The translations under genes were made by a program, and so were the position numbers. Positions 2,527-45,487 of a DNA stretch of 64,000 nt are shown piece after piece (the first letter of the stretch is position 1; every line of letters starts with the position of its first letter). Source of the stretch: Desulfosporosinus acidiphilus SJ4 (GTDB lineage: Bacteria; Bacillota; Desulfitobacteriia; Desulfitobacteriales; Desulfitobacteriaceae); assembly GCF_000255115.2 (NCBI RefSeq), contig NC_018068.1, forward strand, positions 1,116,001-1,180,000. The letters are read 5' to 3'. The notes under the pieces are model-generated. The model worked only from the letters and a program-made list of their open reading frames with translations, had not been told where the DNA came from and searched no databases.

Positions 2527-2667
2527 ATAACAAGGATTGCCAGGTAAAAGATTTGCCCCGCTAAGCCGGCCTGCCTATTTGGATTCTTGGTATTACTTTA
2601 GTTTGGTTCAGGCTGATTGTAAGATTATTAATTGAAATACAAAATAATAATTTTGGAGGAGTTTAGA

Positions 2668-3534
2668 GTGAGAATTGAAGATATCCAGAAGATTTGTGTG
2701 ATTGGTGCCGGGAGTATGGGCTGCCAGATTGCATGGAGTGCAGCTTTGGCAGGATATCGGGTAAGCTGTACCGATGTTAGTTTAGAAATGCTATACCATG
2801 CGAAGGCCTTCGCTGAGAGTTATTTCCCGGCGAGAGTTACTAAAGGAAAGTTAACCCAAGAACAAGTTAATGCAGCAAAGGAGAATATTTCCTTTACTCA
2901 AAATTTAGAGGAAGCCGCAGCAGACTCGGATTTTGCCATTGAGTCAGTTATAGAAAAAATTGATATCAAACGTAAAATATTTGCTGAACTGGACCGTATT
3001 ACTCAACCTCATGCAATTTTAGTGACTAACAGCTCGTTTATTGTTAGTTCTAAAATTGCCAGTGCAACGAAAAGGCCTGAAAAGATATGTAACATGCACT
3101 TTTTCAATCCTGTTTTGAAAATGAATATTGTTGAGGTAGTTCAAGGACCGCATACTTCCGCTGAGACGGCAGAGCTTACCTTAGGGGTATGCGAAAAAAT
3201 GGGTAAACAAGGCATTTTGCTAAAAAAAGAAATCTATGGTTTTTTAGTCAATAGGTTCATAAGGGCACTTAATCATGAAGCGTTGTATCTTGCTGAGATG
3301 GGAGTTGCCAGCCCGGAAGAAATTGATTTAGCTGTCACAAATGCCCTAGGACATCCCATTGGGCCATTTAGGCTAATGGACTTTACCGGCAATGACCTTA
3401 GTTACATTATAGAGATGGAACGCTATCAAGAAACAGGGGATCCAAAGGACAAACCGTCGCCCCTGATAACGGAAAAATATTTCAAAGGTGAATGGGGGAG
3501 GAAGACAAAGAAAGGCTTTTATTCCTATGAATAA
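2668..3534 (+). CDS. 3-hydroxyacyl-CoA (3-hydroxybutyryl-CoA) dehydrogenase, copy 1
   Basis: It oxidises 3-hydroxyacyl-CoA to 3-oxoacyl-CoA with NAD(P)+, or works in reverse. The protein has 288 residues, normal for the short bacterial form. It has a Rossmann motif GAGSMG near residue 14, the active-site region CNMHFFNP, and the C-terminal LMDFTGNDL and KKGFYSYE blocks. The start is a GTG at 2668 with GGAGGA 8 nt upstream; the paralogue at 21408 starts at the equivalent position (MNINDIKTICVIGAG). It stands alone between a sigma-54-like promoter and a strong terminator. The two copies are highly similar throughout. Confidence 0.93.
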   Translation: MRIEDIQKICVIGAGSMGCQIAWSAALAGYRVSCTDVSLEMLYHAKAFAESYFPARVTKGKLTQEQVNAAKENISFTQNLEEAAADSDFAIESVIEKIDIKRKIFAELDRITQPHAILVTNSSFIVSSKIASATKRPEKICNMHFFNPVLKMNIVEVVQGPHTSAETAELTLGVCEKMGKQGILLKKEIYGFLVNRFIRALNHEALYLAEMGVASPEEIDLAVTNALGHPIGPFRLMDFTGNDLSYIIEMERYQETGDPKDKPSPLITEKYFKGEWGRKTKKGFYSYE

Positions 3535-3602: not shown

Positions 3603-3860
3603 GATGGTACCGCCAGTGGCATGGGGCAGGCTATGTCTTCGAGGGGAAAGAAAGAGTTTCTTTATGTATAGCAAGTAAACATTGTGTACCTGATTGAGAC
3701 AGAGATTATAGCGAGTTAGCTTGATTTTCTTAAACAACGGGGGATTATGGGCCCTTGGCAAACGAATGAGTATTGGCATAAAAATTGCTTTATTAATGGC
3801 TATCCTTAACTGTCTGTCGATAAAAATGATTGTCAAGAGGAGGAACTGAGTCGATTTAAG
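3603..3860. other. intergenic stretch, no gene seen
   Basis: No convincing coding sequence is present; a minus-strand open frame here lacks a ribosome site and family features. GAGGAGGA at 3836-3843 is probably the ribosome site of the PHP gene, although the spacing to ATG 3861 is long (about 17 nt). Confidence 0.5.
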
Positions 3861-4532
3861 ATGGAGTTTGATCTACATACTCATACCAGTCAGGGTTCAG
3901 CGTGCAGCCGTATGGTTATTGAGGATTTGGTTCAGGCTGCTTGTGAAAAGAAATTAGATGGGGTTTGCATTACAGATCATGATTATTGCTGGGACGAGAG
4001 GGAATTGGCCAAATTAATGCGGGCCAGTGGCATTCAAGTTTATGGAGGGGTTGAGTTAAGTACAGCTTTTGGCGAGATTCTTATTTACGGTGTACATCAA
4101 TCTTTGCTTCATCTGAGGGATAATTTGCCGAAGTTAGTTCAACTAGTAAGGGACCTTGGGGGAGTCATGATCGCTGCTCATCCCTTGAGAAGTGATTTTC
4201 TCTTCTCGACCTTGACAAGGGAAGAACGCGGACTTGATCCCATTAATTTGGAGGAAATAGGCAGAAGACCTTTGTTTAGTTTTGTTCATACATTTGAAGT
4301 CTGTAATGGGCGCAGTAGTTGGCAGGAAATCCGGGCAGCCCGACAACTTTCATTACTGCTTAATAAAAAGGGAACAGGCGGCAGTGATGCTCACAGCAAA
4401 TTAAGTGTTGGTTCTTGCGTCACTATCTTTGAGGAGCCGGTTCAGAACGAGGCCCACTTAATAACTCAGTTACGTCAGGGATGTTTTAAAGCCAAGAAAA
4501 AGGAGGAATCTAGAAATGTGCTGGGTATGTGA
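3861..4532 (+). CDS. PHP-domain metal-dependent phosphoesterase
   Basis: A 223-residue PHP-fold protein. It starts with the metal-binding MEFDLHTHTSQGS, then ITDHDY near residue 38, GGVELS near residue 61, MIAAHPLR near residue 98 and GGSDAHS near residue 172. These His/Asp motifs bind the metal cluster of PHP phosphoesterases such as nucleoside 3',5'-bisphosphate phosphatases. Its end overlaps the start of the next Fe-S gene by 17 bp, so it probably leads that operon. The substrate is unknown. Confidence 0.85.
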   Translation: MEFDLHTHTSQGSACSRMVIEDLVQAACEKKLDGVCITDHDYCWDERELAKLMRASGIQVYGGVELSTAFGEILIYGVHQSLLHLRDNLPKLVQLVRDLGGVMIAAHPLRSDFLFSTLTREERGLDPINLEEIGRRPLFSFVHTFEVCNGRSSWQEIRAARQLSLLLNKKGTGGSDAHSKLSVGSCVTIFEEPVQNEAHLITQLRQGCFKAKKKEESRNVLGM

Positions 4533-5349
4533 AAAATATGGTAATGGCCAGAAATGGTATCTCAATCCGGAAAATTATGCCCGTCGCCTTTATAAAGTGC
4601 GCAAAGAGGGCAAAGAGGCAGCGGGAGCAGATGCTGATCCCCAATCCGCAGGTATGGGCGCCGGGGTGGTGGCAGAGCTAGTAAAAGCGCGTATCAGCGG
4701 GGACAAGGAATGGGAAGAGGAGATCAAACGAGATGCCTTACAGCAAGCTTATCAAACCCATTTCGGACAGGTAGTCACCTTGGACGAGTATTTGCAGATT
4801 TTAGACACGGCCTATCCCTTGGCCAAAATGACCTGTGGCTGTCGCCGCGTCCAACGAGGGATGCCTGACGAAGAGAATTTCACCTGCATGGGTATTGGTC
4901 CTGGGATGTATAAGTGGGAACGGTGGCCTGAAACTTATCGAGGAGGAGTGGAGTTTGTAACTCCTGAGGAAGCTAAAGAATGGGCAATGATGAACCACAA
5001 AGAGGGGCGCGTCCAAACCGTTGATGTCTTTGGCACTCCTTATATCGGAGGATTATGTCAATGTGAATATCCGGGGTGCGTAGCTGTCCGCAATCGAATA
5101 GATTATGATTTTAAGTTTTTATTAAAAGGACATTCTGTCGCCAAGGTTGACCGAGAAAAATGTACAGGCTGCAAAAGCTGTTTGGGGCGCTGCCAGTTTA
5201 AAGCGCTTAACTTGGAAGTGTATACCAATAAGGCCTATATTGACCTTGACCAATGTTTTGGCTGCGGGCTTTGTGTAACCGCATGTCCTAGCGGGTCGAT
5301 TCAATTGTATGATCGCCAAGGTATGCCAGGATTAGCCGAAAACTGGTAA
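4516..5349 (+). CDS. 4Fe-4S dicluster protein with a Cys-rich N-terminal domain
   Basis: A 277-residue cytoplasmic protein. The last 80 residues hold two ferredoxin motifs, CTGCKSCLGRC and CFGCGLCVTACP. Before them lies a domain of about 190 residues that I do not recognise, with further cysteines arranged as MCWVCE, TCGCR, FTCMG and GLCQCEYPGC. This leaves room for another metal centre. AAAGGAGG lies 9 nt before the ATG. It is translationally coupled to the PHP gene and followed by a second ferredoxin. Electron transfer for the acyl-CoA cluster is an inference from position only. Confidence 0.8.
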   Translation: MCWVCEKYGNGQKWYLNPENYARRLYKVRKEGKEAAGADADPQSAGMGAGVVAELVKARISGDKEWEEEIKRDALQQAYQTHFGQVVTLDEYLQILDTAYPLAKMTCGCRRVQRGMPDEENFTCMGIGPGMYKWERWPETYRGGVEFVTPEEAKEWAMMNHKEGRVQTVDVFGTPYIGGLCQCEYPGCVAVRNRIDYDFKFLLKGHSVAKVDREKCTGCKSCLGRCQFKALNLEVYTNKAYIDLDQCFGCGLCVTACPSGSIQLYDRQGMPGLAENW

Positions 5350-5362
5350 AGGAGGGAAGAAA

Positions 5363-5665
5363 ATGATTGCTCAAATAACTATCGATTATGCATTATGTCA
5401 AGATCCTTTAAATTGTCGCAAATGTCTAAGCATATGTCCTTCTGTTGTATTTGTGTGCGGTCCCACGAAAGTATGGAAAGGCCGGGAGAGCGATTCTCGG
5501 GAGTATAAGATTATCGGCCGTTATTATGATAAATGTTCCGGCTGCGGTGATTGTGAAGAGGTTTGCCCCACAAATGCCCTAAAAGTAACCTTTATACCAC
5601 GTGAACAATTAGCCCAAAAGTTTCGAGAAGAACGGGCAGCTCAATTAAAAGAACGCCAGTTGTAA
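5363..5665 (+). CDS. ferredoxin-like 4Fe-4S protein
   Basis: A 100-residue protein with C-x5-C-x2-C-x3-C near the N-terminus (CQDPLNCRKCLSICP) and a classical CSGCGDCEEVCP near residue 57. Between them is a charged insertion (VWKGRESDSREYK). AAAGGAGGG lies just upstream of the ATG, 13 bp after the preceding Fe-S gene. It probably shuttles electrons with that protein. Confidence 0.85.
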   Translation: MIAQITIDYALCQDPLNCRKCLSICPSVVFVCGPTKVWKGRESDSREYKIIGRYYDKCSGCGDCEEVCPTNALKVTFIPREQLAQKFREERAAQLKERQL

Positions 5666-5697
5666 ATCGGATGAATTTGAGATGGAGGGAGCAGGTA

Positions 5698-6285
5698 ATG
5701 GCTTTAGATTTTAAGGTCTTACAAAAAGTTAAGGGTAATCCAAGTTTTGAGGTTGCCCCCAATCGACGCCTGAAGATAAACCCGGGTCAAGATTATGTCT
5801 ATGATATGCCTAAGGAACTTATATACAAAGTCAACTCGGAATTTCCTGCGGAGAGTTTATTAAAGCAACTTTCTGGGGCAAGCGAAGATTTCTTGGCCGA
5901 ACAGGGAACGAAATTCATGACTATATTAATTCGTGAAGCGGACTCTGACACGTATAAAGACCGAACTGCTGAGATGATTGAAAAGGTTGCCCAACAAACG
6001 GGGATACGATTTCCTCATGTGTTTGAGAGGTATATAGAACTGGGAATCCTGACCCTGCGTCCCCGAGATGCCTGGACGGTCACTGAGGCAACAACCAGGA
6101 CTTTGAAAGTGCGCAGTTATAATTGCAGTCTAAGTAAACGTTTTGCGGAAAAAGGGATTAATAATTGTGAAATTTTCTGTTTAGCTGCCGCAAAAACTGC
6201 TGCTAAAAAAGTTGAAATGACTTTAGAAATAACTTGCGGCAAAGATGGAAATGGGGCCTGCGAACTTGCTTATCGCCCGCAATAA
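5698..6285 (+). CDS. uncharacterised Cys-containing protein in Fe-S operon
   Basis: A 195-residue soluble protein without a motif I can name securely. The C-terminal third is Cys-rich (YNCSL, NNCEIFC, ITCGKDGNGAC) after an alpha-helical first part. That resembles small proteins whose C-terminal cysteines bind a metal or cluster, but the family is not recognised. The chosen ATG at 5698 has GGAGGG 8 nt upstream; an in-frame start 27 bp earlier lacks a site. It belongs to the operon with the two Fe-S proteins. Confidence 0.7.
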   Translation: MALDFKVLQKVKGNPSFEVAPNRRLKINPGQDYVYDMPKELIYKVNSEFPAESLLKQLSGASEDFLAEQGTKFMTILIREADSDTYKDRTAEMIEKVAQQTGIRFPHVFERYIELGILTLRPRDAWTVTEATTRTLKVRSYNCSLSKRFAEKGINNCEIFCLAAAKTAAKKVEMTLEITCGKDGNGACELAYRPQ

Positions 6286-6581: not shown

Positions 6582-6980
6582 ATGATTGGAAGAGAGTTGA
6601 TTGGCAAAGAGAGTGAGTCGATTGTAGTCAAGATTAAACCCGAAGAAGTACGCCGGTTTGCTGAGGCTACGGGAGTTCCTTATAATGATCGAGTTCCTCC
6701 TACATTTGTTGGTACATTATTGCATGCCTCGATAAAAGGCGTAGAACTGCCTGTTGCCGGGATGATTCATGGTGAACAAAAAATTACCTATCACCGCCAA
6801 CTGCGAATCGGGGACTGTATTTCGTACAAAAGGCGAGTTAAAGATGTTTATGATCGAAGCGGCAAACTTGGAAAGATGACCTTTGTGGTGTTAGAGACTG
6901 TTGGAAATGATTTAACCGGTGAATTGGTATTTTCCAGCACTTCCATTATCATTGCTCCTGGAAGGGAGGAAGGTTCATGA
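6582..6980 (+). CDS. MaoC-like dehydratase, N-terminal-type subunit
   Basis: A 132-residue hot-dog-fold protein of the type found as the first half of FAS1-type or MaoC hydratases: IGRELIGKES at the start, RFAEATGVPY near residue 25, then GEQKITYHRQLRIGD. It lacks the catalytic D-x4-H of the partner. Its ATGA overlap with the next gene shows coupling and suggests a heterodimer like mycobacterial HadAB. The expected reaction is reversible hydration of trans-2-enoyl-CoA. Confidence 0.85.
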   Translation: MIGRELIGKESESIVVKIKPEEVRRFAEATGVPYNDRVPPTFVGTLLHASIKGVELPVAGMIHGEQKITYHRQLRIGDCISYKRRVKDVYDRSGKLGKMTFVVLETVGNDLTGELVFSSTSIIIAPGREEGS

Positions 6981-7402
6981 AAAGCTTGTCTGATTATCAA
7001 GTAGCCGAAAAGCTTCCTATCCGCAAATGGATACCCACTCCGATGCAAATTCGTCAGTATGCTGAAGCATCAGGGGATTTTAATCCAATTCATCTCGATG
7101 ATAATTACGCGCGGCAAGCAGGTCTTGGCGGAGTCATTGCTCACGGAATGCTGTCTATGGCTCAAATGGCAGCAATGCTGACAGATTGGATTGGAGATGG
7201 AGGCGCAATTACTAAACTGGATGTTCGTTTTGAGCATATGGTTCGTCCAGGAGATACTATTCTATTTTCCGGTTTTGTAAGGGCTCGATCGGAAAATATC
7301 TTAGTCTGTGATTTAGCTGCCTGCAATGATCGTGACAAAAGAGTATTGTCTGGTTTAGCCTATATAGCCATTAGCCCTAACAAAGCCTGCAGCGCAGAGT
7401 AA
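6977..7402 (+). CDS. MaoC-like (R)-specific enoyl-CoA hydratase subunit
   Basis: A 141-residue hot-dog-fold protein with the hydratase-2 motif near residue 34 (ASGDFNPIHLDDNYARQAGL), including the catalytic Asp and His, followed by GGVIAHGMLSM. It overlaps the upstream subunit by 4 bp. GGGAGGAAGG lies just before the ATG. Because its product would be the (R)-3-hydroxyacyl-CoA, it offers a stereochemical alternative to the crotonases in the same cluster. Confidence 0.88.
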   Translation: MKSLSDYQVAEKLPIRKWIPTPMQIRQYAEASGDFNPIHLDDNYARQAGLGGVIAHGMLSMAQMAAMLTDWIGDGGAITKLDVRFEHMVRPGDTILFSGFVRARSENILVCDLAACNDRDKRVLSGLAYIAISPNKACSAE

Positions 7403-7729: not shown

Positions 7730-7745
7730 TGGCATATATTTTGCA
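7730..7745 (+). promoter_or_regulatory. sigma-54 promoter (-24/-12)
   Basis: TGGCATATATTTTGCA fits TGGCAYR-N4-TTGCW at every fixed position, with a further T before and AA after. It lies 44 bp upstream of the crotonase ATG at 7789 and probably drives the crotonase and the 4-hydroxybutyryl-CoA dehydratase-like gene. Confidence 0.8.
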
Positions 7746-7788
7746 AATAGAAAGAGAAGTAAAATATATGCAAATAGGGGGATGAAGA

Positions 7789-8568
7789 ATGGCATATGAA
7801 ACGATCTTAGTAAACATTGAGGAAGGCATTGCGACAATTACTCTAAATCGTCCTGAAGTGTTAAATGCACTGAATAGTCAAGTTTTTGAAGATCTGGCTG
7901 ACGCAGCACAAACCTTAGGATCAGATGATTCTGTTCGGGCAGTCATTATCACAGGCGGCAATAAGGTGTTTGCCGCAGGGGCAGATATCGGTCAAATGGC
8001 ATCTGCCACAGCCGTTGAAATTTCTACCGGAGACCGCCCTTCGCAGCGGGCATTAAATTTGCTTGAGAATATACCCAAACCTGTTATTGCAGCAATTTGC
8101 GGCTATGCTTTAGGAGGCGGATGTGAACTTGCCTTGGCAGCTGATGTGCGTATTGCCGCAGATAATGCGCAACTGGGCTTGCCGGAAATCAAGCTGGGAA
8201 TTTTACCCGGTGGTGGAGGGACTCAGCGCTTGCCCCGCTTAATCGGTTCGGGAAGGGCAAAGGAATTGATTTTTAGCGGAGATTTTATTAGTGCTCAGGA
8301 AGCTTGGCGGATTGGCCTCGTAAATAAAGTGGTTTCGCCAGATCAATTGTTTGAAGAAGCTTATAAAATGGCGAAACGATTCGCTTCTCGAGGTGCAGTA
8401 GCCTTAGCTATGGCAAAATCAGCAGTAAATGAAGGGTTGAGAATGGATTTAGAGGCAGGTCTGGAATACGAGCATAAATGCTTTAGCCTTCTCTTCGCTA
8501 CAGAGGATCAAAAGGAAGGCATGAAAGCCTTTCTGGAAAAGAGACCGGCCAAGTTTCAAGGAAAGTGA
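7789..8568 (+). CDS. enoyl-CoA hydratase (crotonase)
   Basis: A 259-residue crotonase. Oxyanion-hole segment FAAGADIGQM is near residue 63 and GGGCELALAADVR is near residue 108. Both catalytic glutamates of true hydratases are present, in CELA and in LPEIKLGILPGGGGTQRLPR. The expected reaction is crotonyl-CoA or longer enoyl-CoA to (S)-3-hydroxyacyl-CoA. GGGGGA lies 7 nt before the ATG. It is first in a two-gene unit with the vinylacetyl/4-hydroxybutyryl-CoA dehydratase homologue, whose product would be its substrate. Confidence 0.93.
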   Translation: MAYETILVNIEEGIATITLNRPEVLNALNSQVFEDLADAAQTLGSDDSVRAVIITGGNKVFAAGADIGQMASATAVEISTGDRPSQRALNLLENIPKPVIAAICGYALGGGCELALAADVRIAADNAQLGLPEIKLGILPGGGGTQRLPRLIGSGRAKELIFSGDFISAQEAWRIGLVNKVVSPDQLFEEAYKMAKRFASRGAVALAMAKSAVNEGLRMDLEAGLEYEHKCFSLLFATEDQKEGMKAFLEKRPAKFQGK

Positions 8569-8631
8569 ACCGTTCAGGTAAAGCTGAAAACCTTAAAATT
8601 CTAGGATCAAAAATAGAGGAGGAAAATAAAA

Positions 8632-10104
8632 ATGCGAACAAGAGCTCAATATTTAGAAAGACTAAGTAAAATGAACCGAAATCTCTATGCGAACGGGGAA
8701 AAGATTGACAGGCTCGATCCGCGCCAAGAAGGTGCTTTGAATATAATGGGGCTGACCTTTGACGCGGCTTGGGATCCTGCCAGCAAGGACCTTTGCACGG
8801 CGACCTCTCATCTAACAGGGCAAACCATCAATCGCTTCAATCACATCCATCAAAGCCCTGAGGACTTGCATAAAAAGCAAGACATGACCCGGCTTCTATG
8901 CAATAAAGTTGGGGGGTGCATTCAACGCTGCATGGGAATTGATGCCGCTAACGCGATTAATGCGGTTTCTTATGAGGCTCAAAAATCGTCTAAAGCGAAA
9001 ACGGCTTATCACGATAATTTTCTCAGGTGGCTGGAACGGTTTCAAACAGAAGATCTTGTGGCAAGCTGCGCTCAAACCGATGTCAAAGGGGAGCGACTGA
9101 AGCGGCCCGCTGAACAGACAGATCCCGATATGTATGTTCATGTTGTCGAAGAACGCAGTGACGGTATTGTAGTTCGTGGCTCAAAAGTCCATATTTCAGA
9201 AGCCTCTATTTCAGACGAAATCTTAGTTGTACCAAACCGCGCTTTACAAAAAGGTGAAGAAGCTTATGCTGTTAGTTTCGCTGTTCCTTCAGATTATGAG
9301 GGGATTAAGCAAGTAGTCCATTATCATCAAAATCGTAAGAGAGATTTCTATCAAAGAGGAATTGAAACCGGATACACCGATTCCTACATAATCTTTGAGG
9401 ATTGTTTTATTCCCTGGGAGCGAGTTTTTTTGTGCGGGGAGATCCAGCACGGCGGCCTAGCAGCTTTGCTTTTTGCCCTGTTTCATCGTCATTCCTATTC
9501 AGGATGTAAACCGGCTTCTCTCGATTATGTCATCGGGTTGGCGAGCCTGGCAGCCGAAATAAATGGTATCGGTAAGACTCATAATGTGCGTGAAATGCTT
9601 TCAGAATTAATCATGACGGGTGAACTGGGATATGCCGCCGGTTTCACGGCTTCAGCTTTGGCTAAACCTGAAGTCTATATGCCCGGTATGGGAATGGTCC
9701 CCTATGGCCCTGGGAGTTTCATCCCGAATTCTATTTACGCCAATGTGGGCAGATGTCTGACCGGTGAGGCAGTTTTTCAGGAACAGGAAATCTTATGCAA
9801 TATCGCAGGTGGAATGCCGGCGACGTTCCCCTTTGAAAGGGATTTAATGAATCCGGAGACGAAACAGCTTCTGGAAAAATATCTAAACCGCAATCCCCAA
9901 ATTCCGATTGAGGATCAAATAAAATTCTGGTTAAATTTTATCGATTTTGGTCTTTCCGGTTATGCAGGCACTTCCCAATATGGCGCCTATCACGGCGGAG
10001 GGTCACCAATTATGGAGCAAATTGCTATTACTTCTCAGTATGATATAGAGTCCAAGAAAGACATCGTTCGGGAGATTGCCGGAATGACACCGAGGAAAAA
10101 GTAA
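8632..10104 (+). CDS. abfD: 4-hydroxybutyryl-CoA dehydratase / vinylacetyl-CoA isomerase family protein
   Basis: A 490-residue protein of the AbfD/4-hydroxyphenylacetate 3-hydroxylase (HpaB) superfamily. In the Clostridium aminobutyricum AbfD the [4Fe-4S] ligands are three Cys and one His, spaced C-x3-C and H-x6-C. The same spacing is present here: C96 and C100 in GGCIQRC, H285 and C292 in FHRHSYSGC. This argues for the radical Fe-S/FAD dehydratase rather than the monooxygenase branch. The reaction would be 4-hydroxybutyryl-CoA to crotonyl-CoA via vinylacetyl-CoA. AGAGGAGG precedes the ATG. The real substrate may be a longer or substituted 4-hydroxyacyl-CoA. Confidence 0.88.
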   Translation: MRTRAQYLERLSKMNRNLYANGEKIDRLDPRQEGALNIMGLTFDAAWDPASKDLCTATSHLTGQTINRFNHIHQSPEDLHKKQDMTRLLCNKVGGCIQRCMGIDAANAINAVSYEAQKSSKAKTAYHDNFLRWLERFQTEDLVASCAQTDVKGERLKRPAEQTDPDMYVHVVEERSDGIVVRGSKVHISEASISDEILVVPNRALQKGEEAYAVSFAVPSDYEGIKQVVHYHQNRKRDFYQRGIETGYTDSYIIFEDCFIPWERVFLCGEIQHGGLAALLFALFHRHSYSGCKPASLDYVIGLASLAAEINGIGKTHNVREMLSELIMTGELGYAAGFTASALAKPEVYMPGMGMVPYGPGSFIPNSIYANVGRCLTGEAVFQEQEILCNIAGGMPATFPFERDLMNPETKQLLEKYLNRNPQIPIEDQIKFWLNFIDFGLSGYAGTSQYGAYHGGGSPIMEQIAITSQYDIESKKDIVREIAGMTPRKK

Positions 10105-10194: not shown

Positions 10195-10374
10195 ATCACT
10201 GCCTAATAGAAATTAACAGATAGCGGAGAAAAAATGAAATTATATATCTTAATATTCAGAAATTAACGATATATAATATAGCTTAGATTAAGTAACTTCA
10301 GAACAGTTTGACGTAAGTGAAATACTAAAAAGGTCTGTGGGGAAAGAAATCTGGAAAGTTTGAGGAGGGACAAC

Positions 10375-12021
10375 ATGGAAAGAGTAGGTAAAGGTTGGCC
10401 TGCCGAATTAGCTTCGGATCTATTCTATCGTCGCAGTCAAAAGCCTTTGTTTGAGTATTTACGCGACTATGCTGGGATTACTCCTGAGAAGACAGCAATT
10501 GTTTGGTATGGACGAGAGCTGAGCTATCGAGAGATAAATGATCTTAGTGATCGATTTGCGTCTTATTTGAGAAACTCAGGGTTGAAAAAAGGGGAGAGAG
10601 TTGCTCTCTTTCTCTCAAATTGCCCGCAGTATTTTATTGCGCATTATGGAATTCAAAAATGCGGGGGAGTCGTCTGCCCCTGCAGTCCCTTGTTCAAGGA
10701 GTGGGAACTCGAATACCAATTAAAGGATTCAGAGGCCAAGATAATTGTTACCGCTGACAAGTTGTACGACATCGTCCTTAATGTTCTGCCTCAAACCAGC
10801 CTGGAACAGATTATCCTTACTAGTTATGGAGACCTGCTTCCCCTTGAGCCTACGATCAATGTTCCGGAAGATCTATGCCAACCTAAGCCATCTTTCGCCG
10901 ATAGTATTGATTTATTGACCGTTATCAATCGCACAGAAGCAACAGGGCAAATAGACGATGTGAATGTGGATGACTTAGCTCTGCTGGTATATACCTCCGG
11001 AACAACGGGTAAACCGAAAGGTGCTATGCTCACTCATCGCAATGCGCTCTTTAAGTCTGCTGCAGTTGTTCAAAGCAACCAAATTGGCACCGCGGAAACG
11101 ATATTATCCGTTGCCCCACTCTACCATATAGCTGGGATGTTGATGGGGCTTAATTGTGCGATTTATGCCAACGCAACGACAGTTCTTCTTTATCGTTTCG
11201 ACCCGCTTGCTGTTCTTCAGGCGATTGAGCGCTACAAATGTACTTGGTGGTACAGTATGGTTCCAATGAACATTCATGTGATGCAAGTACCTAATGCCGG
11301 ACTGTACGATCTCACATCCTTAAAAATTAATCCCTGTACAAGTTTTGGAATTAATCTCACCCAGGAACTGGCAGAAGGATGGGCGAAGTTTACGGGAGGG
11401 TGTAAGCTGTTTGAGGGCGCTTATGGCCTTAGTGAAAGCCATACAGGGGATACTTTCATGCCTGTTAACGCTATAAAATATGGAACCCAGGGGATTCCAA
11501 CTTATGAAACAAGTCTTCGTATTCTTGATCCCCAAACCGGTGAGGAAAAGCCAACTGGAGAAATGGGCGAAATAGTACTTAAGAATCCAGGGGTATTTAA
11601 GGGGTACTGGAACCGTGTTGAGGAAACTGCCCAGACGCTGCGTAATGGCTGGGTTCACACCGGGGATATAGGTTTTTTGGATGAAGAGGGTTATTTGACG
11701 TTCAGCGGACGATTGAAAGAAATGATCAAAGTATCAGGTTACAGTGTTTTCCCAGAGGAAGTGGAAGCTATGTTGATTCGTCATGAAGCAATCGCTCAAG
11801 TTGCGGTTATCGGCATAAAAGATTCTCATAAAGGCGAGGTTGTCAAAGCCTTTGTAGTACTAAAGTCGGAGCATAAAGCACACCTCACTCCTCAAACTAT
11901 TATTGACTGGGCTAGACTACGAATGTCCCCCTACAAATCTCCCCGTTTTGTGGAGTTTCGCGACACTCTTCCGTCTACCGGTGCCGGAAAAGTTTTGCGT
12001 CGCCTTTTGCAAGAGCAATAA
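10375..12021 (+). CDS. acyl-CoA synthetase (AMP-forming)
   Basis: A 548-residue ANL-superfamily ligase. The P-loop is VYTSGTTGKPKGAMLTH near residue 205. The acyl-adenylate motif YGLSES is near residue 350, GWVHTGDIGFLDEEGYLTF near 425, the hinge GRLKEMIKVSGYSVFPEEVE near 445, and the C-terminal catalytic lysine is in GAGKVLRR. It activates a carboxylic acid to its CoA thioester. The ATG at 10375 has GAGGAGGG 5-6 nt upstream; an in-frame TTG at 10360 overlaps that site. It is clearly diverged from the two close paralogues at 16868 and 22840, so a different acid is likely. Confidence 0.92.
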   Translation: MERVGKGWPAELASDLFYRRSQKPLFEYLRDYAGITPEKTAIVWYGRELSYREINDLSDRFASYLRNSGLKKGERVALFLSNCPQYFIAHYGIQKCGGVVCPCSPLFKEWELEYQLKDSEAKIIVTADKLYDIVLNVLPQTSLEQIILTSYGDLLPLEPTINVPEDLCQPKPSFADSIDLLTVINRTEATGQIDDVNVDDLALLVYTSGTTGKPKGAMLTHRNALFKSAAVVQSNQIGTAETILSVAPLYHIAGMLMGLNCAIYANATTVLLYRFDPLAVLQAIERYKCTWWYSMVPMNIHVMQVPNAGLYDLTSLKINPCTSFGINLTQELAEGWAKFTGGCKLFEGAYGLSESHTGDTFMPVNAIKYGTQGIPTYETSLRILDPQTGEEKPTGEMGEIVLKNPGVFKGYWNRVEETAQTLRNGWVHTGDIGFLDEEGYLTFSGRLKEMIKVSGYSVFPEEVEAMLIRHEAIAQVAVIGIKDSHKGEVVKAFVVLKSEHKAHLTPQTIIDWARLRMSPYKSPRFVEFRDTLPSTGAGKVLRRLLQEQ

Positions 12022-12050: not shown

Positions 12051-12803
12051 ATGCCTTATGTATCAGTCGGGGGAATAGATATTTTCTTTGAGCGCTCTGA
12101 CGGAGATTCCCTGCCCCTCATTTTTATTCACGGGGCAGGAGGATCGAGTCAGCGCTGGGCAAAGCAATTATCAGGTTTGCAAAATCAATTAACTATGATT
12201 GCTGTGGATTTGCCTGGGCATGGCAATTCCGGCGGAAATTTGCTTTCAGACATCCCAGCCATGGCTGAGTTTCTAAATCAATTTGTCCGTGCCCTAGCAG
12301 TTGAGAAATTCTTCTTAGCAGGGCATTCCATGGGGGGAGCTATTGCCCAGGAATTCACCTTGCGGTATCCAAACAAAGTAGAAGGGCTCATTCTCATTGG
12401 GACCGGAGCCAGGCTAAAAGTGGGTCAAACTATCCTTGATGCCTTTGCCATAGGACAGCTGCCTTTTAAAGATGTCAATCATTTATATGGCTCTTCAATT
12501 TCAGAGGAACAAAAAACTAAAGAACTGCGGGAATTGCAGAAGATTCCTACTAAAGTATTGGGGGCGGATTTTCAGGCTTGCAGCATGTTTGACCGAATTA
12601 ATGATGTCGAAAAAATTAAGGTCCCTGCGTTGATTTTAGTAGGAGAGGAAGATGTCATGACTCCAGTGAAGTACTCCCGATTCTTGACGGAAAAATTACC
12701 CGATTCGAATTTAAGAATGATTGAGGCCGCAGGGCATATGTGCATGGAGGAAAAAGCGACCGAAGTGAATGAGGCATTACTATATTTTTTTAAAAAACTT
12801 TGA
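12051..12803 (+). CDS. alpha/beta hydrolase (lactonase/esterase-like)
   Basis: A 250-residue alpha/beta hydrolase. It has the oxyanion HGAGGSSQRW near residue 27, nucleophile elbow GHSMGG near residue 94, the acid in VGEEDVMTP near residue 205 and the catalytic His in AAGHMCMEE near residue 228. It resembles 3-oxoadipate enol-lactonase-type hydrolases. AAAGGAG lies 10 nt before the ATG and it starts 29 bp after the synthetase, suggesting one operon. It could release an acid for the synthetase from an ester or lactone; that is inferred from position. Confidence 0.85.
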   Translation: MPYVSVGGIDIFFERSDGDSLPLIFIHGAGGSSQRWAKQLSGLQNQLTMIAVDLPGHGNSGGNLLSDIPAMAEFLNQFVRALAVEKFFLAGHSMGGAIAQEFTLRYPNKVEGLILIGTGARLKVGQTILDAFAIGQLPFKDVNHLYGSSISEEQKTKELRELQKIPTKVLGADFQACSMFDRINDVEKIKVPALILVGEEDVMTPVKYSRFLTEKLPDSNLRMIEAAGHMCMEEKATEVNEALLYFFKKL

Positions 12804-12873: not shown

Positions 12874-12908
12874 GGGGGGAGTCTGGTTTCAAACCAGACG
12901 ATATTATG
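12874..12908 (+). promoter_or_regulatory. ribosome site separated from start by a perfect hairpin
   Basis: GGGGGGA at 12874-12880 is too far (about 25 nt) from ATG 12906 in linear sequence. Between them 12881-12899 forms GTCTGGTTT-C-AAACCAGAC, a perfect inverted repeat. If folded, the site comes to about 6-7 nt from the start. Confidence 0.6.
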
Positions 12909-13694
12909 GAAACCAAATATGGAGATGTCATTAAATTTGAAAAGCAGGATTATTGTGGGGCAATTATTTTGGACAATGTCGAGAAAATGAACGTGGTAGG
13001 GGACGCCTTTCTAAAGGAACTGGGAGCCCTGCAACAGGATATTCTCGGTATGGAGGATTTGAGGGCTTTAGCCATTGTTGCCAATGGTGACAATTTTTCA
13101 GCGGGAATCGACCTTAAATTTCTTCATGAAGTCAGTTCAGAGAAAGTGAAGGCTAGTTTAACGCATTTACAGGGACTTTATAGTTTTTGGCAAACCCTTT
13201 CAATACCCGTAGTCATCGGTGTTCAAGGATTTTGTTTTGGTTCGGCCGTTGAATTAATGTTAGGGTGTGACATTAGAATCGCTGCAGAAAATCTGAGACT
13301 GAGCCTGCCGGAAGTTAAGTTGGGGCTATCCCCTGATATGGGCGGGACAACACGCTTAACGAAACTTGTTGGAACAGGGCAAGCCAAGAGACTTATTATG
13401 GCCTGTGAGGAGATTGGTGCGCAGGAAGCTCTTCAAATCGGGCTTGTGGAAAAAATTGTTTCTGTCGAGAAATTACGGGAGTCCACAATCCGACTCGCTC
13501 AAAAAATGGCGACATATCCTCCGTCAAGTGTCGCTTTCGCCAAAAAGGGTATTAATCTTGCCGAAGAAAGCAGTGTAGCGGCTGGCCTATTGTTTGAACA
13601 GGCCCAATCAACCTATTGTTGCGGTACCGAGGATATAAAGGAAGCTATTTCAGCTTTTTTTGAGAAAAGAAAACCCAGTTTTAAAGGGCGTTAA
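12906..13694 (+). CDS. crotonase-family protein, possibly dienoyl-CoA isomerase-like
   Basis: A 262-residue crotonase. The oxyanion segment FSAGIDLKFL is near residue 67 and the helix FCFGSAVELMLGCDIR near residue 112. After it comes LPEVKLGLSPDMGGTTRL. Besides the two hydratase-position glutamates it has Asp 8 residues after the second Glu, the position of the catalytic Asp in delta3,5-delta2,4-dienoyl-CoA isomerase; the crotonase at 7789 has Gly there. Hydratase, isomerase or thioester hydrolase remain possible. The start relies on the hairpin-bridged ribosome site upstream. Confidence 0.88.
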   Translation: METKYGDVIKFEKQDYCGAIILDNVEKMNVVGDAFLKELGALQQDILGMEDLRALAIVANGDNFSAGIDLKFLHEVSSEKVKASLTHLQGLYSFWQTLSIPVVIGVQGFCFGSAVELMLGCDIRIAAENLRLSLPEVKLGLSPDMGGTTRLTKLVGTGQAKRLIMACEEIGAQEALQIGLVEKIVSVEKLRESTIRLAQKMATYPPSSVAFAKKGINLAEESSVAAGLLFEQAQSTYCCGTEDIKEAISAFFEKRKPSFKGR

Positions 13695-13849: not shown

Positions 13850-14086
13850 TTAAGCAGAAGATTAACTGATGTCGTAAGTTTTGCCATCGCGTAGAGTTTG
13901 GCATTTTGATAAAAAGTCTTTATTTACTGATTCTAACGGCCCTTTAGCAGGGAGATTACGGAAGTCTTGGATAGAATTTGGCTAGAAATAATAGTTAGAA
14001 TGTTTAAAATATTTGGCCATTAACCTTTCTTCTTTTGGATTCCTTTAGTATAATGTTTACAAATGATACAAAAACGGGGGGATTTC

Positions 14087-15487
14087 ATGAGTGTCGGAGT
14101 TCATGCTGTCACTACAACCGATTTTCCACGTTGGGACCAAGAACTACTCTTTAAAATCCTCGATAATATTCATGACGTGGTATTGGTAATTGATTCCCAT
14201 ACAACAATTGTTTATGTTAATAAAGCTTATGCTACAATCTTAGGAGTCCCGGTGGAAAAAGTATTGGGCCGGAGATTAGATAAGATTGAACCAGATGCCG
14301 CCGCAATTAAAGTTTTACGAACCGGAACAGCAAGGAATGGTGCAGATCATTTAAAGTCTTTAGACATCGACGTTGTGGGAAGCACCTTTCCCTTGTATAA
14401 AGGGAAACATATTATTGGTTGTATCTCTACCTTTAAAAATGTAACAGAGGAGCTTGAGCTCAATCGTGAACTGCAGCAAACTAAAGGTGTCGCTGATTAT
14501 CTGAAAGAGCAATTAGAACAATGGGAACAACTGCCCCTGTCTTTTAAGGAATACGTAGGGCAAAACCGGAATGTAAAGGAAACCCTTATTTTAGCGGCGA
14601 AGGTTGCCCGAACTGACAGCACCGTATTGATTCGCGGAGAGAGTGGTGTTGGTAAAGAAGTCCTGGCAAGGGCGGTTCATAAGGCCAGTCGGCGCAAAGA
14701 CAAACCTCTGATAAAGGTCAATTGTGCTGCAATACCGGAGAGTTTAATTGAAAGTGAACTTTTCGGTTATGAAGAAGGAGCCTATACGGGTGCTAAAAAG
14801 GGAGGGAAACTGGGAAAATTCGAATTGGCCCATGGTGGGACAATTTTCTTAGATGAGATTGGCGACATGAGTTTAACGATGCAAGCAAAATTATTGCGAG
14901 TATTACAGGAAAGAGAATTTGAAAGAGTCGGAGGATCTGTGGTGGTCAAGGTTGATATCCGAGTCATTGCTGCGACAAACCGTGACTTAGAAACGATGAT
15001 TGTCGAGGGGACCTTTCGGAGGGACCTTTATTATCGTTTGAACATTGTCCCATTGGCTCTTACACCGCTTCGTGAACGCAAAGATGACTTGATGGCTTTG
15101 ACCAAAACATTTCTGGATCAATTTTCTCGTGAAGTTGGTCAAGAGTTGAGCCTTTCCCCTCAAGTCATTAAGCTATTCCAACACTATGATTGGCCAGGTA
15201 ATATTCGCGAACTGCAAAATGTCCTTGAACATGCCAGCATAGTTTGTTCCGGTTCTAGTATTGAGATACAGCACTTACCTGCCAACATAATTCCCACAAA
15301 CAATCAAACTATCAATGTAAAAGATAAAACCTACGATCTTAAGGAAATTGTGGCCAGGGTCGAAAGAGAACTTATTTTATCCGCTTTAGCAAGTAATAAC
15401 AATAATCGAACGAAGACGATGAAAGTCCTAGGAATTTCGAGGCGGGCCTTTTATGATAAATTGCGCAGGTACGGTATCGAAGAATAG
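14087..15487 (+). CDS. PAS-domain sigma-54-dependent transcriptional activator
   Basis: A 466-residue RocR/NtrC-type enhancer-binding protein. The PAS domain spans about residues 15-120 and a short coiled linker runs to 150. In the AAA+ domain, Walker A is GESGVGKE at 184-191, the sigma-54 contact loop GAYTGA at 231-236 (Tyr variant of GAFTGA), and Walker B IFLDEIGD at 253-260. A Fis-type helix-turn-helix ends the protein ([20 protein letters not shown]). No receiver domain is present, so a small ligand bound by PAS is the likely signal. ATG 14087 follows CGGGGGG; an ATG 24 bp earlier lacks a site. Four sigma-54-type promoters in this cluster are its obvious targets. Confidence 0.95.
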
Positions 15488-15654: not shown

Positions 15655-15670
15655 TGGCATGAATTTTGCA
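15655..15670 (+). promoter_or_regulatory. sigma-54 promoter (-24/-12)
   Basis: TGGCATGAATTTTGCA matches TGGCAYR-N4-TTGCW at every fixed position. It lies between the activator gene and the MBL-fold hydrolase and would drive the hydrolase and possibly the genes after it. Confidence 0.8.
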
Positions 15671-15796
15671 TGTTAATATTGGGACTCTATGTTGTAACAG
15701 AGATGACCAATGATAATCTTAAGGGGGATCAGTGGGTTCTCCCCGGTAGAGAACCTTAAAAGGGATGTTTTACCGCCTAGGAGAACTGCGATTAGA

Positions 15797-16690
15797 ATGA
15801 GTGAAGCAATGATCGTCAATTTGCTGCCACAGTTATTTTTTGTCTCAGGGGAACAGGGAGGACGGTTTCCATACAGCAATGGACTTTTGATTGAAAGTGG
15901 AAAAAGGGTTCTCATTGATACAGGTTTTGGTCCCAGTCGGAGGAAAAAGCTTCTGGAAAGAGGATCAATTGATGTGATCATTAATACTCATTTCCATTTA
16001 GACCATGCCTATGGAAATAAATATTTTCCTGAGGCTGAGATTTGGGCTCATGCCTTCGACGCACCTCCCATACGTTCAGTAGATAATTTTATGGCTTATA
16101 CAGGATTCCGTGAACTTTCTGATTTTCCCGATCCTGAGCACTTCCCCGGTGGGCCATCGAATCAAAAGGTTGACCGAGAGCTTATCGACGGCGATGTCTT
16201 AGACTTTGGCCAAATCGTTCTTAAGGTTATCCATACGCCAGGGCATACTCGCGGGCATATTGCACTTTATGAGCCGCAGGCGAGCCTCTTATTTTCGGGG
16301 GACATTGACCTTTCACCTTTTGGGCCTTGGTATGGTAACGTACGCTCTGATCTTGAGGAGTTCGTAAACTCTATTAACCGGCTAATCGAGTTAAAACCTA
16401 AAATTTTGGTTACCAGCCATGAAGGAATAATTTCGGATAATATTTCGGAAAGATTAAAAAGCTATGCTGAAAAGATTGATCAGCGAGATGAACAAATCCT
16501 TAGGTATTTGCAGGTCCCAAGGAAGGCGGCTGACCTGCTCGATAAAAAAATTATTTTCAAACGTTATCCTGAACCTCAAAAGGCCTATCGCTTTTTTGAA
16601 CTGACAATGTTGGAAAAGCATTTGCAGCGTCTCGCAAAGCAAGGAAAGATCGTTCTGAGACCAAATGGTAAATATAAGGCATATGCCTAA
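15797..16690 (+). CDS. MBL-fold metallo-hydrolase
   Basis: A metallo-beta-lactamase-fold hydrolase of about 297 residues. The zinc motif is NTHFHLDHAYG near residue 66; further ligands are in IHTPGHTRGHIALY near residue 147 and LFSGDIDL near residue 169, with LVTSHEGI later. The C-terminal 80 residues look like a helical, winged-helix-like extension seen in some MBL thioesterases and lactonases. Two in-frame upstream starts exist (15710 and a few others); 15797 is preferred because TAGGAGA lies 12 nt upstream and family similarity begins there. It may cleave a thioester or lactone. The start is uncertain. Confidence 0.85.
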   Translation: MSEAMIVNLLPQLFFVSGEQGGRFPYSNGLLIESGKRVLIDTGFGPSRRKKLLERGSIDVIINTHFHLDHAYGNKYFPEAEIWAHAFDAPPIRSVDNFMAYTGFRELSDFPDPEHFPGGPSNQKVDRELIDGDVLDFGQIVLKVIHTPGHTRGHIALYEPQASLLFSGDIDLSPFGPWYGNVRSDLEEFVNSINRLIELKPKILVTSHEGIISDNISERLKSYAEKIDQRDEQILRYLQVPRKAADLLDKKIIFKRYPEPQKAYRFFELTMLEKHLQRLAKQGKIVLRPNGKYKAYA

Positions 16691-16867
16691 GAACTTCGAC
16701 TCTAATTATCAGTAAATTATGAAAAGAATGACTAATAAACCAATGGTCTCATTTTAAATGTTCCAGGCAGTTTGAAAGGAGTGTGATGCTAAGGCAGAAG
16801 GGCATTATTCATCAAATCGGAAATGGCAGGTATCAATGAGGAACCAGTTTTTGGGAGGTTGAAAACA

Positions 16868-18520
16868 ATGTCAGATAACATGAAACCTTGGTTAAAAAAC
16901 TATCCCTCGAACGTTAGATACCAACTTGATTATCCCAACAAAACGCTTGGGCAGCTATTTGATGAAACCGTAAGTAAAATGCCGGATAGTCTTGCCTTGA
17001 TTTTTGCAGATCAAAGGATCACTTATCGACAGTTTGGGGAGCAAGTTGATCGTTTTGCCAGTGCTCTAGCCAACTTGGGTATTGAAAAGGGTGAACGTGT
17101 GGGACTCATGGGTCCGAATTGTCCCCAGTGGGAAATAGCCTTCTTTGCCTTGCTCAAATTAGGGGCAATCGTCGTCCAGACTAACCCAATGTATGTAGAA
17201 CGAGAAATTGCCTATCAGATGAATGATTCCGGGGCAACAACCCTCATAGTATTTGAGTTATTATATCCGCGAGTCAAGAATATTCTCAAAGAGACCTCTT
17301 TAAAGCGGGTGATCGCCTTTAATTATCTAAACCCCGTTGAGGCGAGCCAAGATCTTTATTCCTTTGATAACTTAATCCAATGTGAAATTGCTGTTCCTGA
17401 AGTTAAAATTAATTCCTCTGAAGATCTCGCTGTTTTACAGTATACAGGAGGTACGACAGGGGTTTCTAAAGGGGTAATGCTGACTCATCGGAATTTAATT
17501 TGTAATACTTTTCAGGTTATGGAGCTGGCGGTCAATATTGAATATGGTAAAGAACGCATTCTCACCATTTTGCCGGTATTCCATGTCTATGGTATGACCG
17601 ATTGTGTTAATTTTGCTGTGGCGATTGCAGCAGCACAAGTAATTTTACCTCGCTTTGAAATTGAAAAGGTTTTGGAAACAATTCAAAAACATCGTCCAAC
17701 TCTTTTCCCTGGTGCTCCAACGATGTATATGGCTATTAACAACCATCCTAACATTAGGCATTTTCGGGAGAGCTTAGCCGCTATTAAAGTCTGCAATAGT
17801 GGTTCGGCACCTTTGCCATTGGAAGTCGCTCAAAAGTTTGCTGAAGTCACTCAGGGAGAAGGTAATCTTGTCGAGGGATACGGCTTATCAGAGGCTTCCC
17901 CTGTAACTCACAGTAATCCTTTAGACCGGCCAACACGTCCCGGTTCCATTGGCCTTCCTCTGCCCGATACGGATTGTGTCATTATGGACTTGGAAACGGG
18001 AGATAGGGTGCTGCCGCCAGGTGAAATCGGAGAATTATGTATTCGTGGTCCCCAAGTTATGAAAGGTTATTGGAATAAAGCAAAGGAGACCGCTGAAACC
18101 TTACGGAACGGATGGTTATATACCGGAGATATCGCCAAAATGGATGACGACGGTTATTTCTATATTATCGACCGTAAGAAGGATATTATCATTGCCGGCG
18201 GTTTTAATATTTACCCGCGTGATATTGAGGAAGTACTCTATGAACACCCTAAGGTAAAAGAAGTGGTAGTGGCAGGAATTCCGGACCAATACCGTGGGGA
18301 AACCGTCAAGGCCTATATAGTCCTGCAGCCTGATAAGGAAGGAACAGAAGCAGAATTTACAGCCTTCTGCAAAGATAAGATGGCTGCCTACAAAGTTCCG
18401 CGTCAAGTGGAGTTTCGCAGTGAATTGCCAAGGACCATCGTTGGCAAAGTTCTTCGCCGCCAGTTAGTGGAAGAAGAAAAGGCCAAACTTCAAACGGCAG
18501 TTGCTTGTGAAAAAGAGTAA
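16868..18520 (+). CDS. long-chain-type acyl-CoA synthetase, paralogue 1
   Basis: A 550-residue AMP-forming ligase. The P-loop is QYTGGTTGVSKGVMLTH near residue 195. It has EGYGLSEASPVTHSNP, GWLYTGDIAKMDDDGYFYII, the hinge DRKKDIIIAGGFNIYPRDIE, and catalytic Lys in IVGKVLRRQL. ATG 16868 has GGGAGGT 9 nt upstream, and its first residues match the start of the paralogue at 22840; an upstream in-frame ATG is rejected for lack of both. The two paralogues are nearly identical in layout and motifs. The DUF362 gene follows 47 bp later. Confidence 0.93.
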   Translation: MSDNMKPWLKNYPSNVRYQLDYPNKTLGQLFDETVSKMPDSLALIFADQRITYRQFGEQVDRFASALANLGIEKGERVGLMGPNCPQWEIAFFALLKLGAIVVQTNPMYVEREIAYQMNDSGATTLIVFELLYPRVKNILKETSLKRVIAFNYLNPVEASQDLYSFDNLIQCEIAVPEVKINSSEDLAVLQYTGGTTGVSKGVMLTHRNLICNTFQVMELAVNIEYGKERILTILPVFHVYGMTDCVNFAVAIAAAQVILPRFEIEKVLETIQKHRPTLFPGAPTMYMAINNHPNIRHFRESLAAIKVCNSGSAPLPLEVAQKFAEVTQGEGNLVEGYGLSEASPVTHSNPLDRPTRPGSIGLPLPDTDCVIMDLETGDRVLPPGEIGELCIRGPQVMKGYWNKAKETAETLRNGWLYTGDIAKMDDDGYFYIIDRKKDIIIAGGFNIYPRDIEEVLYEHPKVKEVVVAGIPDQYRGETVKAYIVLQPDKEGTEAEFTAFCKDKMAAYKVPRQVEFRSELPRTIVGKVLRRQLVEEEKAKLQTAVACEKE

Positions 18521-18567: not shown

Positions 18568-19869
18568 ATGGATAAACCGTCCGTATCAATTGTAAAAGTA
18601 AATGATGTTTATGAATCCCTGCAAGAGAGCTTAAAATTATGTGACGGATTAGCTGGGTTAAACACAAATGACCAAATTTTAATTAAACCTAATATAGTCA
18701 GTTGGGATTTTGATCTGCCATTCCCACCCTTCGGTGTGGTGACTACGAGCATTGTCATAGAAGCTCTGGTACGTATCTTGGCTGAGCATGGGTTTAAAAA
18801 ACTGACGATTGGTGAAGGGGCTTTGCCTGTATTTAATCCCAAAGGCGAAGCTGTTTATGAAGCCTTAGGATATAATAAGTTGGTGCAGCGCTATGGCGTA
18901 AAACTTGCAGATTTCAACCAAGAGGCTTTCATAGCCGTTGACTATGGAGAAGGTTTAACACTTGATATTGCCAAGCAAGCTCTGGAAGCAGATAAAATCA
19001 TTAATGTACCGGTTCTGAAGACACATAATCAAGCGAAAGTCTCTTTGGGTATTAAAAACTTAAAAGGGTGTCTTAATAAAAGGTCCAAACAATTATGTCA
19101 TGGCGTGGGCAATGGAGAACTTAGCCTAATGTTTCCGCATATCATTGAAAAACTTCCCGTTGCCTTGACCATTATTGACGGCCTATACACCCTTGAAAAG
19201 GGGCCGGGTCCAACGGGCAGGTCCTTCCGCAAAAATTTGCTTATCTCCTCCCGAGATCCTTTTGCCTGCGATTTAGTGGGTGCCGCGATTCTTGGTTATC
19301 CTTTAGACGATGTTGAACATCTTAGTATTTATGCTGAACGTCATGGGTACAGCAGAGATTTAGCTGATTATGAGATAAAAGGTGAAACTATCGAAGATCA
19401 TAAGGAATATGTAGAGTATGATTGGGAGTGGTCAGAAGAGGATACTGGACCCTCAGGATTTGCCAAAAGAGGTATTACGGGTTTAGCAATTCGCAAGTAT
19501 GACAGCAGCCTGTGCACAGGTTGTTCCGTTCAATACAATCCAATGTTAATTCTTCTTGCTTCCGCCTATAAAGGCCAGCCTTTTCCTAATGTTGAGGTGG
19601 TGAGCGGCAAGAAACGTTTAGCATCTCCGGGGTTTGAGCACTCAGTACTCTTTGGTAAATGTGCTTGTCACCTAAATAAAGATAATCAGGACATCAATAA
19701 AGCTATTTCGCTTTGGGGTTGCCCTCCTGATCTGAAGAAATTTGTTGATACCTTAGCTAAAGAGGGAATTGAATGTGACTATAAGGAGTATATTCGCTTT
19801 CGTCACTATTTAATGGATCGCTATAAAAAGGATGCGAATTTTAAGCTTTCCGATTGGTCTGTTGAATAG
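18568..19869 (+). CDS. DUF362 domain protein
   Basis: A 433-residue protein with the DUF362 core: ILIKPNIVSWD near residue 41, IIEALVRILAEHGFKKLTIGEG near 60-85, and VPVLKTHNQAKVSLGIKNLKGCL near 148-170. The usual ferredoxin tail is replaced by scattered cysteines (CTGCS near residue 311, CACH near 360, WGCPPD near 382), which might bind a metal. DUF362 proteins are common in anaerobes near Fe-S enzymes but their activity is not established. GAGGGAG lies 8 nt before the ATG. Probably co-transcribed with the synthetase. Confidence 0.85.
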   Translation: MDKPSVSIVKVNDVYESLQESLKLCDGLAGLNTNDQILIKPNIVSWDFDLPFPPFGVVTTSIVIEALVRILAEHGFKKLTIGEGALPVFNPKGEAVYEALGYNKLVQRYGVKLADFNQEAFIAVDYGEGLTLDIAKQALEADKIINVPVLKTHNQAKVSLGIKNLKGCLNKRSKQLCHGVGNGELSLMFPHIIEKLPVALTIIDGLYTLEKGPGPTGRSFRKNLLISSRDPFACDLVGAAILGYPLDDVEHLSIYAERHGYSRDLADYEIKGETIEDHKEYVEYDWEWSEEDTGPSGFAKRGITGLAIRKYDSSLCTGCSVQYNPMLILLASAYKGQPFPNVEVVSGKKRLASPGFEHSVLFGKCACHLNKDNQDINKAISLWGCPPDLKKFVDTLAKEGIECDYKEYIRFRHYLMDRYKKDANFKLSDWSVE

Positions 19870-20837: not shown

Positions 20838-21003
20838 CCTTTGGCCTACTATCCCTCCCTTCCGGCGCCACAGTGGTTATTGGAAGATGCTAATAAAGTG
20901 TTTTGCAATATTTGTGCCACTATTCAAAAGATTCAAAAAACATCAAGTAAACTCTTGTTATCTCTCGATTTGTCGCTTTGATTTTCGGAGATTTTAGCAA
21001 AGT

Positions 21004-21149: not shown

Positions 21150-21407
21150 TATATGTAAGCGCTGTTTAGGAAATATACACATAGACTTTTCACTGTATAC
21201 TTTTAGGCAAAAGATTTCCATTTATCCATGACTTGAATTAGAATTGAGATCTAAATTCACTTACAGATAGGATCTTGTTCGGATGAGCTTTTGTATAAAA
21301 TATATACGCTTGTAATTAAGCGGGATCTATTGAAAAGAACAATAAGAGGCAAGGCACTTTTTAAGCGGGGATTAATAAGAACAATAAAAGATTTCGGAGG
21401 TGCAGTT

Positions 21408-45388: not shown

Positions 45389-45487
45389 TATAGTCGCCTG
45401 CCATTTCAAATAATTTCTTTTAAAATAAGAGCATACCTATAACGTTTATGCCTGAATAGACTGAGAAGTTAAAGTAGCACGGGTTTA

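Follow-up and report, generated by a model that had tools for sequence, protein, structure and literature searches.

A 4-hydroxybutyryl-CoA dehydratase-like protein lacking Glu455 in a beta-oxidation-type gene cluster of Desulfosporosinus acidiphilus SJ4

Does a protein that keeps the iron-sulfur ligands of 4-hydroxybutyryl-CoA dehydratase (4HBD) also keep the reaction of that enzyme? The question arises from a 64-kb stretch of the Desulfosporosinus acidiphilus SJ4 genome (NC_018068.1, positions 1,116,001 to 1,180,000), here called the window, in which a predicted 4HBD-like [4Fe-4S]/FAD protein of 490 aa is encoded on the plus strand (8632..10104). The host is a sulfate reducer; its genome is of complete quality, with Desulfosporosinus species as nearest relatives. 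A preliminary description of the locus took the intact ligands as the mark of a probably real dehydratase and proposed a route that starts from a lactone or a 4-hydroxy acid and might use a substrate longer than 4-hydroxybutyrate.

In a profile search, the 490-aa protein matches the HpaB_N and HpaB domains. Ranked against the PDB, its first match is AbfD, the 4HBD of C. aminobutyricum (1U8V, E 6e-84), followed by 6VJR from Nitrosopumilus maritimus (2.7e-66) and then by HpaB (6.7e-33). The alignment pairs C96, C100, H285 and C292 with the cluster ligands C99, C103, H292 and C299 of 1U8V, which bears out the AbfD spacing noted in the preliminary description, and Q98, Y289 and K293 with Q101, Y296 and K300. 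The codons lie on the plus strand at 8917..8931 (C96 to C100) and 9484..9507 (H285 to C292, with Y289). Site numbers of 1U8V follow the AbfD literature; when 1U8V was read back from the alignment, the expected residue type stood at 10 of 10 checked positions. An AlphaFold model of the protein (pLDDT 89) superimposes on 1U8V with a TM of 0.91 and an rmsd of 2.7. Length, fold, the four ligands and the equivalents of Q101, Y296 and K300 are common to the 490-aa protein and the solved 4HBDs, at identities of 34% and 29% (about 34-35% for AbfD); it differs from them in an additional segment around 348-358 and in Y453, which replaces M457. Judged from its sequence, it is most likely a [4Fe-4S]/FAD enzyme.

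The Pfam names HpaB_N/HpaB would speak for an HpaB-type flavin-dependent monooxygenase, and the superfamily fold is indeed common to both. However, HpaB and the chlorophenol monooxygenases (2YYG, 3HWC) are without the Fe-S ligands, reach an identity of about 25% or less, and stand on a distant branch. Furthermore, the NCBIfam HpaB equivalog scores 142.7 bits against a cut-off of 480.2, and the hosts are strict anaerobes. The preliminary description had suggested a phylogeny against AbfD and HpaB as a check; in our 51-sequence tree with its root at HpaB, as in the PDB ranking, the protein falls on the 4HBD side and not with the monooxygenases. Monooxygenase function was discarded on the basis of tree and ligands, and we leave it practically no probability.

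Membership on the 4HBD side does not extend to the catalytic site. T190, E257 and E455, kept in both solved 4HBDs, align with S189, D250 (codon at 9379..9381) and G451 (codon at 9982..9984, both on the plus strand) of the 490-aa protein. In AbfD, E455 has reportedly been proposed to deprotonate Y296, and E257 is said to protonate FAD through T190; the variants E455Q and E257Q reportedly have no measurable activity, both glutamates being essential for the dehydratase activity. S and D, which are conservative replacements, could still do the job of T190 and E257, but G cannot replace the function of E455. Since E455 and E257 are essential in AbfD, dehydration by the 490-aa protein would require another base. 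No substitute for E455 could be located on the AlphaFold model because the modelled loop 454-460 is unreliable (pLDDT < 50). Misalignment at this position was considered and rejected, as the exchange lies three residues ahead of the motif HGxGSP, which is invariant in the aligned 4HBD-like rows (TESMHGAGSP against QYGAYHGGGSP), and as the protein has no further acidic residue on the stretch from D438 to E462.

The loss is shared by all aligned members of the group. E455 is present in both solved 4HBDs and in 23 further AbfD-type rows, and it is replaced by G (once by A) in 86 sequences of the protein's own clade. In a sister group that is frequent in Clostridia (43-52% identity), 16 of 16 fetched members carry A, G or S at this position, such that E455 is missing from every aligned member of the group that is 43-100% identical to the 490-aa protein. 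With E455 lost and E257 and T190 changed, the ligands alone are insufficient for calling a 4HBD-type dehydratase, and the step from intact ligands to a real dehydratase is not borne out.

The genome encodes a second homologue, 0.6 Mb from the window (C3:1732762), which carries the full signature CQCTEHYCKE and is 71% identical to 1U8V; upstream of it lie genes for a butyryl-CoA:acetate-type CoA-transferase and for a sigma-54 activator of its own. Because of this separate true 4HBD, a substrate other than 4-hydroxybutyrate is likely for the 490-aa protein, and 4-hydroxybutyrate is its least likely substrate. Of the earlier proposal, the different substrate thus stands as likely, while its greater length is only possible. 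The window-type protein is the only match in three near-complete genomes, which argues that it and the true 4HBD are independent. Fold and Fe-S ligands would fit an ordinary 4HBD, but the clade-wide changes at E455, E257 and T190, the bona fide enzyme with its CoA-transferase elsewhere in the genome, and an identity to AbfD of 34-35% versus 71% for the true one all stand against it. This reading was rejected in view of the E455 loss and the true paralog, and we consider it very improbable.

The tree places the 490-aa protein in a clade of its own (SH-aLRT 100), on a branch separate from both AbfD and HpaB. It lies outside the clade of characterised 4HBDs and branches with E455-less sequences, a wider group that none of the AbfD-type rows joins. 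Between E455-less and AbfD-type sequences, the deep split has moderate SH-aLRT values (85-87), and some branches are long. Among 398 genomes of the phylum, identity to the 490-aa protein falls into bands of 74-100%, about 42-54% and at most 41%. At 63-100% identity, the Fe-S ligands and the equivalents of Y296 and K300 are kept, and that of Q101 nearly so, in Clostridia, Syntrophaceae and Dehalococcoidia. The signature CQCSDHYCKG occurs in 83 aligned sequences, and CQCTEHYCKE in 25 AbfD-type sequences including both solved 4HBDs. As far as alignment and tree tell, the E455-less group is a separate, uncharacterised clade, common in Clostridia, Syntrophaceae and relatives, and the 490-aa protein is not itself a 4HBD but a member of this sister subfamily. 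Our literature search for papers on E455-less homologues, on 4-hydroxyvaleryl-CoA dehydratase and on lactone degradation by sulfate reducers returned nothing relevant. Benzene-activation flavoproteins (PMC13101534) were considered as a parallel and set aside as different flavoproteins. Further divergent 4HBD-like paralogs without Y296 or even H292 were seen at five loci, with signatures such as CYCSTHCCKG, CGCAQYICVG and CHCTQHACKM.

What surrounds the gene is a cluster with the parts of a beta-oxidation (coordinates on the plus strand). Upstream, the order is a 3-hydroxyacyl-CoA dehydrogenase (2632..3534), a PHP protein, a 277-aa protein with a C-terminal 2[4Fe-4S] ferredoxin domain (4516..5349), a 100-aa ferredoxin (5363..5665), a conserved 204-aa protein without confident family match that is syntenic in relatives (5671..6285), a MaoC-type pair, and a crotonase (enoyl-CoA hydratase) of 259 aa in which both catalytic Glu were found by inspection (7789..8568). 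The MaoC pair consists of a HadA-like hydratase half (6582..6980) and a HadB-like (R)-enoyl-CoA hydratase half with the motif DxNPxH (6977..7402). Downstream follow acyl-CoA ligase 1 (10360..12021), an alpha/beta hydrolase with the nucleophile motif GHSMGG (12051..12803), a second crotonase-family protein (12906..13694), a PrdR-like PAS/AAA/HTH sigma-54 activator (14063..15487), a metallo-beta-lactamase-fold (MBL) hydrolase with HxHxDH (15710..16690), acyl-CoA ligase 2 (16823..18520), a DUF362 protein (18568..19869), a second 3-hydroxyacyl-CoA dehydrogenase (21291..22274) and acyl-CoA ligase 3 (22840..24489). The beta-oxidation-type context, the three ligases and the two hydrolases had all been recognised before and are confirmed; so is the lack of thiolase and acyl-CoA dehydrogenase, neither of which was found in the 64-kb window by tblastn with the relatives' proteins. 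The changes at E455, E257 and T190, the MaoC pair, the two 3-hydroxyacyl-CoA dehydrogenases, the activator and the true 4HBD are additions to the preliminary description.

The 277-aa ferredoxin-type protein is found at 83-96% identity in many genomes of the Desulfosporosinus family; most Desulfosporosinus copies reach 90-96%, exceeding the conservation of the surrounding enzymes. Elsewhere in the window (43160-45409, minus strand), a protein ends in an acetyl-CoA hydrolase/transferase domain; at 749 aa, its length is unusual for a CoA-transferase.

The cluster is rich in sigma-54-type sites. Searching for TGGCAC-N5-TTGC with at most one mismatch gave nine sites in the window versus 2.9 expected, a number reached by 0 of the 100 shuffles that served as background. 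Five sites lie ahead of cluster units (3774, 7730, 15655, 22682 and, on the minus strand, 20905), all recognised by consensus match. The -24/-12 site TGGCATAAAAATTGC (3774..3788, plus strand) lies upstream of the PHP-ferredoxin unit, and a similar site is found ahead of PHP or Fer4 in 11 relative loci. The site TGGCATATATTTTGC (7730..7744, plus strand) is situated 45 bp ahead of the crotonase start codon, TGGCATGAATTTTGC (15655..15669, plus strand) precedes the MBL gene, and a weak site precedes acyl-CoA ligase 3 (22682-22696). The preliminary description had let its segment start at 7730, which is the first base of a site conserved in relatives; there, sites lie 61-230 bp ahead of the 490-aa-type gene or its crotonase. 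Among the relative loci L033-L059, such sites occur in about 18: 17 sites directly precede a 4HBD-like gene and 2 its crotonase, where in three cases (L044, L046, L047) the counted site belongs to either the 4HBD-like gene or an AbfD-type paralog. Solitary 4HBD-like copies in Desulfotruncus are among the genes so preceded. With the -24/-12 site at 7730, the activator gene at 14063-15487 and the conserved sites in relatives, the features of a sigma-54-dependent operon are present, and the activator encoded in the cluster would switch its units on. The perfect consensus site on the minus strand (20905-20919) lies upstream of a gene for a 232-aa membrane protein of no confident family (20062-20760, minus strand), for which the ORFs of the loci used in the comparison held no homologue. 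A survey reports sigma-54 regulation of COG2368, for the most part in Clostridia (PMC12316311); these genes share the COG and the predicted sigma-54 control with ours, but in the passages concerned the E455-less clade is not split from true 4HBD.

The enzymes missing from the window are encoded in a sister module of the same genome, 0.4 Mb away (C3:712-731 kb), with acyl-CoA dehydrogenases, a FadB-like fusion and thiolases. It has activators of its own, 74-77% identical to the single one of the window, and a crotonase at 78%. Within C3:700001-740000, this sigma-54 module also shows succinyl-CoA-ligase-like genes and three long acyl-CoA dehydrogenases. In D. hippei and others, a single cluster comprises PHP, Fer4, ferredoxin, the MaoC pair, activator, crotonase, the 490-aa-type gene, acyl-CoA dehydrogenase, dehydrogenase, DUF362, FadB-like protein, thiolase and ligase. 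When the paralogous modules are compared, the crotonase is followed by an acyl-CoA dehydrogenase in one and by the 490-aa-type gene in the other. This suggests that the 490-aa protein, standing directly after the crotonase in the slot of the acyl-CoA dehydrogenase, occupies the enoyl-forming slot and supplies enoyl-CoA.

The pairing with a crotonase, described earlier, is real at this locus (7789-8568) but not obligatory: a crotonase beside the 4HBD-like gene is frequent, not universal, in relatives, and no copy was found between MaoC and the 4HBD-like gene in L033 and L034. In many deep relatives, the 4HBD-like gene is solitary or lies near amidase, TPP enzyme, SDR, TetR or unrelated genes, so that no single substrate is indicated. 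Amidase neighbours were seen at two loci. At three, the 4HBD-like gene follows a TPP-enzyme gene (acetolactate synthase / 2-hydroxyacyl-CoA lyase-like) immediately or almost so.

Frequent solitary genes are expected of an auxiliary enzyme, and the 490-aa protein might be a delta3-to-delta2 enoyl-CoA isomerase only, which lost dehydratase activity with E455 and handles beta,gamma-unsaturated intermediates in the oxidation of unsaturated or branched fatty acids. AbfD is also known as vinylacetyl-CoA isomerase, the isomerisation of vinylacetyl-CoA being its second activity. Dehydration should suffer from the loss of E455, and in relatives the gene adjoins those of acyl-CoA dehydrogenase, FadB and thiolase. 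Against this stand the cluster ligands, invariant across great distances, although in AbfD the isomerase activity partly outlasts the loss of dehydratase activity in air; in addition, a crotonase-fold isomerase could do the same step. We regard pure isomerisation as possible, if on the unlikely side.

A further link concerns DUF362. DUF362 proteins that share 59% identity or more with the one in the window occur in 16 of the 398 genomes (one being a fragment), and homologues in the E455-less identity bands occur in 32. Both are found together in 14 of the 16, where 1.3 would be expected (hypergeometric P about 2e-15, with relatedness left out of account). The two genes lie within 9 kb of each other in 10 of these 14 genomes (six families). 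For fetched members, the sequence itself showed that E455 is absent; for the rest of the DUF362 set this was deduced from identity.

Tentatively, we favour the reading that the 490-aa protein takes a C4 substituent off some CoA thioester, though not off 4-hydroxybutyryl-CoA, and that the resulting 2-enoyl-CoA feeds a sigma-54-controlled beta-oxidation. Superfamily and ligases point to a CoA thioester as substrate, and the invariant ligands to an Fe-S-dependent elimination. An acid would first be released by a hydrolase and then activated by a co-regulated ligase. The gamma (C4) group removed would most plausibly be water, and the substrate a 4-hydroxyacyl-CoA that is longer or substituted; the Fe-S cluster would act as Lewis acid, and FAD/Tyr would take one-electron steps. 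The enoyl-CoA would be hydrated by the crotonase or the MaoC pair and oxidised by the 3-hydroxyacyl-CoA dehydrogenases, and the final cleavage would fall to the thiolases of the sister module. A lactone or a longer 4-hydroxy acid as starting compound fits the alpha/beta and MBL hydrolases and a phosphotriesterase-family gene close to the 4HBD-like gene in three relatives; this part of the preliminary description we retain only as a hypothesis.

The group at C4 might also be an amine, a quaternary amine or a thiol, or another radical reaction might take place on the CoA ester. Changed acid/base positions, the hydrolase genes and the two ferredoxin-type proteins of the cluster would suit this. 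BbuA (gamma-butyrobetainyl-CoA:TMA lyase) follows a like logic, a flavin enzyme taking trimethylamine off gamma-butyrobetainyl-CoA to leave an enoyl-CoA, and proves that C4 eliminations of such kind exist (PMC8364193). However, BbuA belongs to another family, at about 10% identity to 4HBD (PMC8364193), and the cluster showed no gene for the handling of amines, so that we hold elimination of such a group, or another radical reaction, to be distinctly unlikely.

Beyond this locus, and returning to the favoured elimination from a different CoA thioester, it is quite conceivable, though short of probable, that the E455-less clade as a whole represents a distinct enzyme type, which starts its flavin/[4Fe-4S] chemistry in another way than by E455-Tyr deprotonation and acts on another, environmentally common acyl-CoA, possibly helped by DUF362. 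If true, many genes annotated as 4-hydroxybutyryl-CoA dehydratase or HpaB carry the wrong name. The presence of 4HBD is taken to indicate 4-hydroxybutyrate fermentation or either of two autotrophic CO2-fixation cycles; ligand- or COG-based annotation would count the large E455-less sister clade as 4HBD and lead to false pathway calls. The clade would also provide a natural test of the role of E455, as its members have evolved without this residue and yet retain cluster and Tyr.
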